From IMG/VR virus record IMGVR_UViG_3300031951_001099, positions 1 to 25,595 of that record: a DNA stretch of 25,595 bases. The stretch is one strand, 5' to 3'. Below are positions 9,211-12,827 of this stretch, piece after piece. Within the stretch, counting starts at the first letter, position 1, and every line of letters begins with the position of its first letter. Both the position numbers and the translations under genes were made by a program. The DNA is from a virus. The notes beneath the pieces are model-generated. The model saw only the letters and a program-made list of their open reading frames with translations. It ran no database searches and was not told where the DNA came from.

Positions 9211-9797
9211 TTCATTATCTTTAATAACCTTCCAAATACATCTTTGGTAACTCCTTTGTTATAAGCTGCATCTGGAATAAACTTCTCGAACTCTTTTATG
9301 TTGCCTTGCTTAACAGCCGCACGCATCTGAGTTGCAGATATTCTACCGAACTGGTCAGGTATTACTTCTTTTCTTACACGATCAGGGAATCTTTTCTGTA
9401 TTGCATCAAAATAGCCTAGGCCTTCTACTTCTTCAGCCCCTCCTGCTACATAGACAGGATCAACTTCACGGTTAGCGTCTAGAAAAGAGAAAATGTCTTT
9501 GATAGGTGTAGACTCTTTTGAAATAGTTACCTTGATCTTAGGGTTAGGTTCTGCTTTCAAATACTCTGTCCATATATAAAGAGAGTCTTGTGGTGTTATA
9601 CCAAATTTAGTTACATTTGAAATAACAACATAGACTCTGTTGATATAAGGTTTAGATGCTAAGTATTTGGCAGCTTCGAAGTGACCTTTATGTGGTGGTT
9701 TGAATTTGCCAGGATAAAAGCATGGTCCAACATCTGAAGACGCTTCTCTTAAAATGTCTTCTGCTATTTGTCTACCGATATGGTCTATATTGATCAT
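9207..9797 (-). CDS. Nucleotidyltransferase (NMNAT/cytidylyltransferase-like) with N-terminal LRE leader
   Basis: 196 residues. The class I nucleotidyltransferase signature is clear: Y-P-G-K-F-K-P-P-H36-K-G-H39 (28-39) and I-S-A-T-Q-M-R (153-159, the ISSTxxR motif). Such enzymes transfer a nucleotidyl group (NMN, FMN, pantetheine phosphate or CTP substrates); the exact substrate cannot be read here. Residues 1-18 precede the domain and end I-L-R-E|A (15-19), matching the LxE leader of neighbouring proteins, and could be cleaved without touching the active site. It overlaps the kinase gene upstream and the HAD fusion downstream by 4 bases each, so the three are made together. An NAD-related role is possible, not shown. 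Confidence 0.85.
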   Translation of the reverse strand: MINIDHIGRQIAEDILREASSDVGPCFYPGKFKPPHKGHFEAAKYLASKPYINRVYVVISNVTKFGITPQDSLYIWTEYLKAEPNPKIKVTISKESTPIKDIFSFLDANREVDPVYVAGGAEEVEGLGYFDAIQKRFPDRVRKEVIPDQFGRISATQMRAAVKQGNIKEFEKFIPDAAYNKGVTKDVFGRLLKIMK

Positions 9798-10579
9798 TTG
9801 GAAATAAACGATTTTGCTTTTGAAACAGCTTGGCTCATGTCTTGTACTTTTAAGCTCTCAACCTGCTTCTCAATTTTATCAAACTGCCCAGAAAGTATGT
9901 CTATCTGCTTGTCTACTAGTGCTTTAGACTTTGCTATCTCTTCAGGGCTTTTCTGTTTAGTAGGATCTTTTCTGAATGTTGATTTGAACTCACCAGATGA
10001 TAACAGACTCTCAAAGAACTCTTTCAGCTTGTCTTGCTTGAAAGCCTTTTCAAACTCACCAACCATCTTCTTCTCTTCATCAGACATTGTAGTCTGTACT
10101 AGAAAGAACTTGTCACCAAACGCTTTCTTATACGTCTCAATGTTCTTGTAGATATTGTTCCAGCTACTTAGAACACCGACAGTTGGTACTTTCCTCTCTC
10201 TTTTAAAGTTACGAAGAAAACTAACGATCGGGTTAGAATATACCATGACCATCATGATATCGTAGCCACTATCTTTAATCGACAAGATTCTATCTACATT
10301 TGAAGCAGTAGTGTCGTACAAGAAGTTCTTGCCACTTTTTACCGTCTCAGGAAGGTCTATTTTGTCAATCTTACTAGAAGCTTTGGCAAGATTATTAAAC
10401 ATGTCAGACTCTGGGTCTTCTACATATTTATCTGCATTTAACTCTACCCAGCCATTTTTTACTAGGTCTGGTCTAATCTGTTTAACAAAAGTAGATTTAC
10501 CAACTCCAGCCCCACCAGCCATAATAATTGCCTTCTTCTGGCCTTTCACCTCATTTAATAAGTCTAGTAGCTTAATCAT
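9794..10579 (-). CDS. P-loop kinase, zeta-toxin/polynucleotide-kinase-like, with MIKLLDLLNE leader
   Basis: 261 residues. The Walker A motif is G22-G-A-G-V-G-K28-S-T30. N48-A-D50, D89-T-T91 and an Arg-rich lid (R123, R127, R129) fit the zeta-toxin/kinase group that phosphorylates small molecules or polynucleotide ends. Residues about 165-261 are helical and charged and not typical of the family. The leader M-I-K-L-L-D-L-L-N-E|V nearly repeats the start of the 2619-3206 protein and ends in LxE only about 10 residues before the first strand. No antitoxin-like partner is adjacent, so a toxin-antitoxin role is unlikely. The substrate is unknown. Confidence 0.75.
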   Translation of the reverse strand: MIKLLDLLNEVKGQKKAIIMAGGAGVGKSTFVKQIRPDLVKNGWVELNADKYVEDPESDMFNNLAKASSKIDKIDLPETVKSGKNFLYDTTASNVDRILSIKDSGYDIMMVMVYSNPIVSFLRNFKRERKVPTVGVLSSWNNIYKNIETYKKAFGDKFFLVQTTMSDEEKKMVGEFEKAFKQDKLKEFFESLLSSGEFKSTFRKDPTKQKSPEEIAKSKALVDKQIDILSGQFDKIEKQVESLKVQDMSQAVSKAKSFISK

Positions 10580-10594: not shown

Positions 10595-11388
10595 TACGAC
10601 CCTAACTTAACCGTATTAGGAAGGGTTAAGAGTTCAATGTCAGTCTCTGGGTGCATAATCTTGTAAGTTTCGTAAGTGTGCAAGAACATTTGGAAGTATT
10701 CGTCTAAGGTCTTTTTACCTTCCATGATCTCCCAGCCTGCACCTTGCATTTTCTTCCCAGTCTTATCAGGCCCTCTTTTGCTAGACTTAAGCCAGATAAT
10801 ACCATTACGGTCTACTGTCTGAAGGTATCTCTCTTCATAAGCCTTTGTGTAAGCAGACATCTGTAGATAGTAGCTCTCGTGAATATTGTTAGACGTTTTA
10901 ATATCTAAGATCCACTTCTGACCGTTTAACTCTACAAGTAGATCTAATGTTCCAGAGTACTTATGAGTATCACTATACATAAACTCTTCAGATAGTAGTA
11001 GTGTTGGTTTATAGGTGGTCCAGAAGTCAACAAAAGACAAGATCATCTTCCATACATGTGTATGATAGTTAACTCTACCATCAGACTCAATCCAACGAAT
11101 CTCTTCACCACGAAGAAACTTTTCTACGGCTTCATGTACTTGTGTTCCTTCATCACCAGCACGCCTCATAACAATATCAGCATTATGTCCCATGTCTTTC
11201 AACCATGTTTCAAAGAAAGAACCTTTAGGGAAATAGCCTAAGATTGTAGTGACAGAAGGATAAAAAACACCAGGAGACCTTTGATAGTATCTAGAGTCGT
11301 GAAGTGTGATTTGTCTAAGATCAGGATCAGTTTCAACAATACGTTTCAAGAATTTATCCTTGTAAACGTTCTTTGACTGTTCAATCAT
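10594..11388 (-). CDS. PD-(D/E)XK nuclease, RecB/Cas4-like exonuclease family
   Basis: 264 residues. The RecB-family nuclease motif order is visible: G-T-Q-V-H85-E (81-86), E134/E135, G-T-L-D149-L-L, L-D162-I-K164-T, then Y-Y-L-Q176-M-S-A-Y (173-180). These residues bind metal and cleave DNA in the family. T4-like phages carry related nucleases near primase/helicase genes, which fits the adjacent primase (4-base overlap). Probable role: DNA processing during replication or recombination. It has no leader of the LxE type, as expected for a replication protein. Confidence 0.85.
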   Translation of the reverse strand: MIEQSKNVYKDKFLKRIVETDPDLRQITLHDSRYYQRSPGVFYPSVTTILGYFPKGSFFETWLKDMGHNADIVMRRAGDEGTQVHEAVEKFLRGEEIRWIESDGRVNYHTHVWKMILSFVDFWTTYKPTLLLSEEFMYSDTHKYSGTLDLLVELNGQKWILDIKTSNNIHESYYLQMSAYTKAYEERYLQTVDRNGIIWLKSSKRGPDKTGKKMQGAGWEIMEGKKTLDEYFQMFLHTYETYKIMHPETDIELLTLPNTVKLGS

Positions 11389-12314
11389 ATTAATTGAATT
11401 TTCTTGAGTAGAAGGTCTGCAAATGAAAGTGGCTTTGCTTTGTGTAGCAGTTTAGTCATGTATTCAAAGCCTAGATCCGATGGATCTTTTCCTTCTAACT
11501 CGATTAAATATACCTCTTTCCCATGATCGAGAAGAGTTTGTGAATAATTAAGAGCTTCTTTTAAAGCGTCTTTGTCTAATGCTAAATATACTGTTTTTAC
11601 TTCAGATTCTACTAATTTCATCATGAGTGACTTAGGAATAGTCTTTCCAAATAATGGGATTGCGTTACGTTTAATTGCAATCGCATCAAAGATTCCTTCA
11701 CATAGTATAACTGGAACAGACCAATTAACGAAGTACTCAAGCCCTATCAATTCTGTTTTATTACAACTTGGTGCGTCTATTTTCTGAAATGGATCTTTCT
11801 CAAATGATCTTGCTATGAAGTAGTTGATGTTCCCATCACTATTATAAGAAGGAACCACAATCTTATTTCTGTATCTTCCAGTCTTACAATAGCCGATGTT
11901 GTATTTTTGTATGTCTTGTAGACTGATCTGTCTTTTCTTCAAATAAGCTAAAGCGTGTCTTGCTTCTAGTGACTTATCTGGGTTAGATAAAGAGATAAAT
12001 TCTTCTGGTAGGGTTACTTTATTAGACTTCGTGGTATCAATCTTGGTATTGTCTCCTTGAAAATAGGTTTTCATCTCAAGTGTCTTCTCTGTTGGTGCAT
12101 CGATCTTTTTAAAGAGTGACACTGGTGTTTTACCTTTTGTAGCCGGGTGACAAGTCCAACAGTTATATTGGCCAGTCTTGATATTGATTATAAGTTTAGG
12201 GTTATGGTGTTTACATATAGGGCAATAGAAAGCGTAGTCCATAGTAGTCTTTGAACCCTTTCCTTTACCTAATACTGTCTCCAGAAGACCTAAAACGAGT
12301 AATTCTTTGTCCAT
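11385..12314 (-). CDS. DNA primase (zinc ribbon plus TOPRIM)
   Basis: 309 residues. The zinc ribbon is Y-C31-P-I-C34 and N-C52-W-T-C55 (with nearby His). The primase core follows from about 115 (A-Y-L-K-K-R-Q-I-S...Y-N-I-G-Y). The TOPRIM residues are E206-G (L-C-E-G-I-F-D) and D247-K-D249 (L-A-L-D-K-D-A). This matches a compact phage DnaG-type primase, the functional counterpart of T4 gp61, that makes RNA primers for lagging-strand synthesis. It is the first gene of the leftward block, beginning 354 bases from the first rightward gene. The upstream leader is A/T-rich without a Shine-Dalgarno sequence. Confidence 0.9.
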   Translation of the reverse strand: MDKELLVLGLLETVLGKGKGSKTTMDYAFYCPICKHHNPKLIINIKTGQYNCWTCHPATKGKTPVSLFKKIDAPTEKTLEMKTYFQGDNTKIDTTKSNKVTLPEEFISLSNPDKSLEARHALAYLKKRQISLQDIQKYNIGYCKTGRYRNKIVVPSYNSDGNINYFIARSFEKDPFQKIDAPSCNKTELIGLEYFVNWSVPVILCEGIFDAIAIKRNAIPLFGKTIPKSLMMKLVESEVKTVYLALDKDALKEALNYSQTLLDHGKEVYLIELEGKDPSDLGFEYMTKLLHKAKPLSFADLLLKKIQLI

Positions 12315-12358: not shown

Positions 12359-12407
12359 AAAAAATTTTTCCGTTTCAAATATTTGTTGTATATTGGTTGT
12401 AACTAAC

Positions 12408-12602
12408 GCCGGGTCTAGTTGACTCTACTCCATAGCTTGGTGAGATTCCATGAGTGAGAGTTAGATCAAATAGCCAAGAACGGCTACCAGGAGCTAAGAC
12501 TAAGATATGCTTCAGGTATAGAAAGATAGTCGAAAGTGAAAGTTTAAAAGAATATCGGTAAATCCGACGGTCATAGTCCGCTAGGGCTTTTAAATATAAA
12601 CT
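12408..12602 (+). ncRNA. Candidate structured non-coding RNA in the divergent junction
   Basis: This is the main content of the 354-base gene-free stretch (12315-12668); it has no plausible plus-strand ORF and looks richer in G+C than its flanks. Helices I can pair by eye: 12422-12430 with 12452-12461 (9 bp, one bulged G), TAGCC 12471-12475 with GGCTA 12482-12486, GACTA 12498-12502 with TAGTC 12527-12531 enclosing TATGC 12506-12510 with GTATA 12516-12520, TCGG 12555-12558 with CCGA 12564-12567, and CGG 12568-12570 with CCG 12578-12580. A long-range closure (12408-12410 and 12415-12418 with 12581-12587) would enclose all of these. AGTTTA 12541-12546 can pair with TAAACT 12597-12602 as an alternative or pseudoknot. 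A G-U wobble in the TATGC/GTATA stem favours plus-strand transcription. No known RNA family recognised. Confidence 0.5.
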
Positions 12603-12633
12603 AAGACAAAAAACGACGTCAAACTTCACTTTA

Positions 12634-12655
12634 TATATAGGCAATACCCTATATA
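12634..12655 (+). other. AT-rich hairpin before the first rightward gene
   Basis: An 8-bp stem, TATATAGG (12634-12641) with CCTATATA (12648-12655), and a 6-base loop. It ends 13 bases before the ATG at 12669. No T-tract follows, so it is not a typical terminator; it may shape the 5' end of the mRNA or end the upstream RNA. Confidence 0.45.
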
Positions 12656-12668
12656 ATAAAATCATTTT

Positions 12669-12827
12669 ATGATAGAAGAAAAAATAACAGAAGAACAACT
12701 AGAAGCATTATATATCTATTTATCTTTACACTTTGATACGTTTAAAGATGATGAAAAATTGTTTTGGATAGATTTAATGCAAGAACTAGATAACGAATTT
12801 TTAGAAGAAGTTACAAATTATGCCTAA
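12669..12827 (+). CDS. Small acidic protein, unknown function
   Basis: 52 residues from ATG 12669 to TAA 12825-12827, M-I-E-E-K-I-T-E-E-Q-L-E-A-L at the start and E-E-V-T-N-Y-A at the end. It is acidic and helical. It overlaps the next start by 8 bases, a sign of coupled translation. First gene of the rightward block; no family recognised. Confidence 0.65.
   Translation: MIEEKITEEQLEALYIYLSLHFDTFKDDEKLFWIDLMQELDNEFLEEVTNYA

Follow-up and report, generated by a model that had tools for sequence, protein, structure and literature searches.

What is encoded between the divergent primase gene and the gene block of opposite orientation in the window, that is, the whole stretch of DNA analyzed (25,595 nucleotides, IMG/VR record IMGVR_UViG_3300031951_001099)? 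Comparison with related sequences shows that a group of uncultured water phages carries an uncatalogued folded RNA of ∼250 bases at the start of an operon that encodes a probable sigma factor, and this RNA probably switches the downstream genes on and off. A first-pass annotation of the window had placed a compact structured plus-strand RNA at 12408–12602, and this proposal is strongly supported by covariation, by the recovery of further copies with a covariance model, and by negative results with Rfam.

With the divergent primase ORF (11385–12314, minus strand) as the query, we collected 59 IMG/VR loci; in ∼50 of them the region preceding the primase is conserved, and compensatory changes are visible in it. 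A structure of 45 pairs was drawn by hand on a set of 28 copies, and a covariance model was built from the same 28. In this set, 95.1% of the pairs are formed and 20 pairs have changed on both sides; none of 500 shuffles matches the pairing, the both-side change counts, or the covariation score (the number of pair types is matched by 74 of 500), and when the partners are slid along, pairing falls to about 41% at most. The model recovered complete held-out copies at 98–224 bits, with individual held-out scores of 129.6 (L056), 133.7 (L045), 155.1 (L109), 158.8 (L137), and 105.5 bits (L141), and it confirmed 32 of 33 newly scanned loci; the exception, L237, was the sole match in a bacterial genome and was rejected as a copy of the RNA. 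When the analysis is extended to 60 distinct copies, the 45 pairs are 95.8% paired, 32 pairs and 440 cells have changed on both sides, none of 500 shuffles equals these values by any measure, and pairing in slid controls is 42.7% at most. It should be noted that the 60-copy alignment leans toward the structure because it was fitted to the covariance model; the swap tests (each 5′ strand paired with its own versus other copies’ 3′ strands) and the loop-to-tail pairing described below do not depend on this alignment.

Of the checks that the annotation had named, the covariance search in related phages thus yields compensatory changes beyond both the shuffled and the slid controls, and the comparison of folding energies fails: the folding energy of segment 12408–12602 is −45.9 kcal/mol, compared with a mean of −41.75 for shuffled sequence, which is not above chance (z = −0.97), and the mean z across the 60 family copies is −0.95. 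Since 26 of 200 shuffles fold as well as the segment, energy is no proof here, and it is the covariation that establishes the RNA; energy-based screens miss RNAs such as this one.

The same RNA is present in ∼100 IMG/VR contigs (100 viral contigs matched a relaxed P3 pattern), with one copy per record, including a contig of 162 kb; a second weak match in G003 was judged to be due to chance. None of the 4227 families of Rfam 15 matches at the gathering cut-off in the window and five other loci, the matches at E ≤ 10 in the four copies tested are chance matches only, and ARAGORN finds no tRNA or tmRNA in segment 12408–12602, in agreement with the earlier view that the RNA lies outside known families. 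BLASTN of the RNA against 50,697 phage records gives short chance matches only, a pattern-level search of 84,980 bacterial and archaeal genomes gives no genuine copy, and a search of open-licence papers found no description of the RNA. The nearest isolate by primase (tBLASTn) is Flavobacterium phage immuto, at 40% identity, in which no copy was found; weak model matches in immuto and in L154, L163, and L238 were judged to be chance. As had been noted before, the segment is richer in G+C (41%) than its upstream (19%) and downstream (26%) surroundings and has no credible plus-strand ORF, no plus-strand frame staying open across the 60 copies. A mechanically called minus-strand ORF at 12375–12698 was rejected, one minus-strand frame being open in one copy among 60, and L056, L045, and L203 have lost a short upstream ORF that starts at an AUG within the P2 hairpin (reading MSES* in the window), which we do not regard as functional. 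We file the RNA as a new structured RNA family, leader-switch-like, for which membership among the riboswitches is not claimed.

The conserved RNA runs from ∼12400 to ∼12655 on the plus strand (Table 1). Its 3′ limit lies beyond the previously proposed 12602 because P4, a loop-to-tail pairing, and a pseudoknot, P8, bring in 12600–12655; the multiple local helices described within 12408–12602 are indeed present, and the long-range pairing said to close them corresponds to P1.

Table 1. Features of the RNA and its immediate surroundings, in window coordinates
Feature	Position	Strand	Remarks
Promoter-like element, TTTC...TGTATATT	12373–12394	+	Kept upstream of most copies
5′ domain	12408–12484	+	P1, P2, and irregular P2 hairpin up to 12459
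P1 closing helix	12408–12411/12481–12484	+	Six pairs with both-side changes (60 copies)
P2	12419–12422/12466–12469 and 12424–12427/12462–12465	+	Covariation (60 copies)
P2 end hairpin	12436–12452	+	7-nt T-loop-like loop UGAGAUU, 12441–12447
P3 hairpin	12485–12494/12509–12518, loop 12495–12508	+	9 bp, one A·A mismatch
GAC in P3 loop	12498–12500	+	Pairs with GUC 12618–12620
P4	12529–12531/12605–12607 and 12535–12537/12600–12602	+	Encloses 3′ domain P5, P6, P7
P5	12544–12550/12587–12593	+	Encloses P6 and P7; all seven pairs changed on both sides
P6	12555–12558/12564–12567	+	Three of four pairs changed on both sides
P7	12568–12570/12578–12580	+	Nearly invariant; GGG/CCC in L230
P8 5′ strand, UAGGG	12582–12586	+	After P7; swap test
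GUC, P3-loop partner	12618–12620	+	Downstream of P4; aligned by sequence without reference to pairing
P9 local hairpin, UAUAUAGG/CCUAUAUA	12634–12655	+	Would exclude P8; swap test
P8 3′ strand, CCCUA	12647–12651	+	17 nt before ORF52 start codon
ORF52	12669–12827	+	First operon gene; small, very acidic, predicted three helices

In the 5′ domain, both-side changes among the 60 copies affect five pairs of P2 (whose register in the window was set by hand), four of the UCUA/UAGA helix, and five of the inner stem. The loop at the end of P2 resembles U-K-N-R-A, which we take to be the T-loop motif; the A at loop position 5 is invariant in a 29-copy alignment, as are two G-C pairs of the hairpin stem in 60 copies. 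One copy (L205, ∼1050–1110) lacks the promoter-like element and the whole P1–P2 domain and keeps P3 to P8, either by natural deletion or as an assembly artefact.

P3 is 98.3% paired across the 60 copies, and its pair 113/138 is seen as A-U (41), C-G (12), G-C (5), U-A (1), and U-G (1). It is the best match to the helix of 9 bp with a single bulge that the annotation had reported, the length being correct and the irregularity being a mismatch rather than a bulge; the G-U pair said to fit plus-strand transcription only is G12491·U12512 of P3, which 56 of 60 copies keep as G-U and the other four have as G-C. The 3-bp pairing between the P3 loop and the tail is possible in 56 of 57 copies, and each of its three positions has changed on both sides; as tallied by eye, the forms are GAC/GUC (44), GAU/AUC (7), GAU/GUC (3), GGU/GCC (1, L056), and AAC/GUU (1, L230). 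Both sides of this pairing are lost in L212 (∼1583–1760) and L228.

Three pairings were subjected to swap tests, for which the p-values are too small because related copies are treated as independent, so that the direction of the difference is what counts. P4 strands pair better with their own partners than with swapped ones (−4.96 versus −2.68 kcal/mol, p = 3.4e-9), and so do those of P8 (−7.93 versus −6.00, p = 1.7e-9). All 57 copies allow a P8 helix of 5 bp or more, in forms that include UAGGG/CCCUA, AAAGG/CCUUU, CAGGG/CCCUG, UAAGGG/CCCUUA, UAGAG/CUCUA, and UAUAG/CUAUA; the automatic register was wrong in four copies (L222, L215, L206, and L203), where UAGAG/CUCUA was assigned by eye. The 3′ strand of P8 lies a median of 14 nt from the ORF52 start codon (9–19 nt in 47 of 57 copies, 23–69 nt in nine). 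P9, found in many copies, gives p = 2.4e-6 in the swap test, but several clades lack it or have only a weak form; P8 and P9 would be mutually exclusive because both use the CCCU strand.

Wherever the flanking genes are present, the RNA is found between the divergent primase and the same operon, in the order ORF52, a glutaredoxin-like gene, ORF58 (in part), an HD protein, ORF90, ORF250, and structural genes, and the one-strand gene block behind it runs at least to 25595. ORF52 follows nearly all copies of the RNA, is conserved in RNA-bearing and RNA-less relatives, and has no Pfam or PHROGs match. ORF250 is a probable sigma factor: by sequence it matches Sigma70_r2 at E = 0.044 only, besides a chance PDB match, and a structure model of moderate confidence (pTM 0.45) retrieves a phage sigma factor among the best BFVD matches (Bacillus phage Shanette, E = 1.4e-3) and frequent but weak matches to sigma-bearing complexes in the PDB. 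Judging from the promoter-like element, the transcript would start at ∼12400; as a phage-wide promoter class the element was rejected, since it is not enriched in the 162-kb relative (4 sites versus 6 in the control). We found no plus-strand terminator-like site between the RNA and ORF52, the sole one nearby being on the minus strand. Elsewhere in the window, 9794–10579 (minus strand) encodes a P-loop kinase with a Pfam match to Zeta_toxin (E = 7.5e-9).

The RNA has been passed on vertically as the primase diverged to ∼55% identity. Two related clades have the operon but, in place of the RNA, a short G-rich leader; such leaders, e.g., ACAGGGGGAAAAC or AAGGGGATG, precede the ORF52 homologue in L127–L130, L133–L135, L139, L151, L155, L157, L158, and L053–L055. 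The presence of the RNA on the primase tree requires three changes, and the simplest reading is that the RNA is old and was lost in two clades, the direction of gain or loss being an inference because the deep branches of the tree are poorly resolved. In L022 (1–336), unrelated sequence replaces the RNA just after the −10-like element, near the contig end, and the contig is possibly a chimera.

What does the RNA do? We see an even chance that it is a cis-acting structured 5′ leader that would control translation of the ORF52 operon, a reading that is favored because P8 abuts the start codon, no plus-strand terminator-like site intervenes, and the RNA never leaves the operon. Its site directly upstream of ORF52 is that of a 5′ UTR, a candidate expression platform lies close to the initiation region, and the RNA and ORF52 would presumably be co-transcribed. 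Transcription from ∼12400, as the promoter-like sequence suggests, would let P1 form at the 5′ end. The RNA folds into two domains, P1–P2–P3 and P4–P7, tied by the loop-to-tail contact, as covariation shows. The CCCUA in front of the ORF52 start codon could pair with the core, forming P8, or else with its neighbor, forming P9; swap tests support both pairings. P8, once formed, would hinder (or, less likely, help) the entry of ribosomes at ORF52 and the genes that follow. The balance may be set by a metabolite, ion, or protein that appears during infection and binds the highly conserved core. The wide P8-to-start spacing in nine copies, the patchiness of P9, and the two clades with an operon without the RNA count against this reading. 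Of the two roles that the annotation had offered, regulation is thus favored by two features, the RNA’s fixed site immediately before one operon and a pseudoknot close to the start codon, and no support was found for a packaged phage RNA.

The main rival, which we regard as rather unlikely, is an independent RNA acting in trans, with its 3′ end made by processing or termination ahead of ORF52, which would bind a phage or host protein (e.g., RNA polymerase or the ribosome) or act as a scaffold. The elaborate tertiary architecture, the single copy, and the RNA’s own promoter-like element would suit such an RNA, P8 and P9 could mark its 3′ end, and the fixed operon association is not decisive because it is also expected of a trans-acting RNA gene that is inherited vertically; however, the missing terminator-like site, the 9–19-nt distance between P8 and the start codon in most copies, and the fact that the RNA is never seen detached from the ORF52 operon all speak against it. 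The put RNAs of phage HK022 are processive antitermination elements, and by analogy the leader may act on RNA polymerase in the long operon; its position fits, at the head of a long one-strand block, but the proximity of P8 to the start codon is left unexplained and the operon occurs without the RNA in related phages, so that we consider antitermination improbable. A constitutive 5′ structure that shields the mRNA from exonucleases or aids ribosome binding without switching is slightly more improbable still, since the invariant loop and junction bases and the two competing pairings exceed the needs of a stability hairpin, even though P1 would be at the extreme 5′ end if the promoter-like element is used. 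That the region is an AT-rich spacer with chance helices, as the unremarkable folding energy would allow, is refuted by covariation, and also by held-out detection and the swap tests, and has next to no chance of being correct.

Beyond the cis-acting leader that we prefer, it is possible, if on the doubtful side, that the RNA represents a new phage-specific class of riboswitch or of non-coding RNA, which would sense an infection signal, gate the sigma-factor operon, and so time the late genes. To our knowledge, there are few well-supported structured RNAs exclusive to phages; the present one combines two domains and two long-range contacts ahead of an operon with a probable sigma factor, and if it switches, a reporter would allow a direct test of how these phages time the expression of late genes.

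T-loops recur in unrelated RNAs; cobalamin and TPP riboswitches contain T-loop-like hairpins, and cobalamin riboswitches also have long-range loop pairing. The present RNA shares the hairpin with both and the loop pairing with the cobalamin class, but has no Rfam match at E ≤ 10 in the four copies tested. Several described phage RNA switches are borrowed bacterial classes. Methylophage Melnitz, for example, carries a glutamine riboswitch of a known bacterial class (PMC9004378), likewise a riboswitch-type RNA in an aquatic phage, whereas the present RNA has no genuine copy, at the pattern level, in the 84,980 bacterial and archaeal genomes. The manA and wcaG motifs of T4-like cyanophages are, like the present RNA, candidate cis-regulatory structured RNAs of aquatic phages, those of wcaG preceding exopolysaccharide or high-light genes (PMC2864571), but the present RNA, without an Rfam match, is a separate family. 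The leader pseudoknot of T4 gene 32 is a small autogenous translational operator, 67 nt upstream, that nucleates gp32 binding (PMC3014915). We found no evidence of shared descent with it: the present RNA is ∼250 nt long with nested helices, its pseudoknot strand adjoins the start codon, and the gene downstream, instead of encoding a single-strand binding protein, is the very acidic ORF52 without a Pfam or PHROGs match. The two are nevertheless alike in that the leader of a phage mRNA has a pseudoknot ahead of a start codon, with translational control established there and proposed here.
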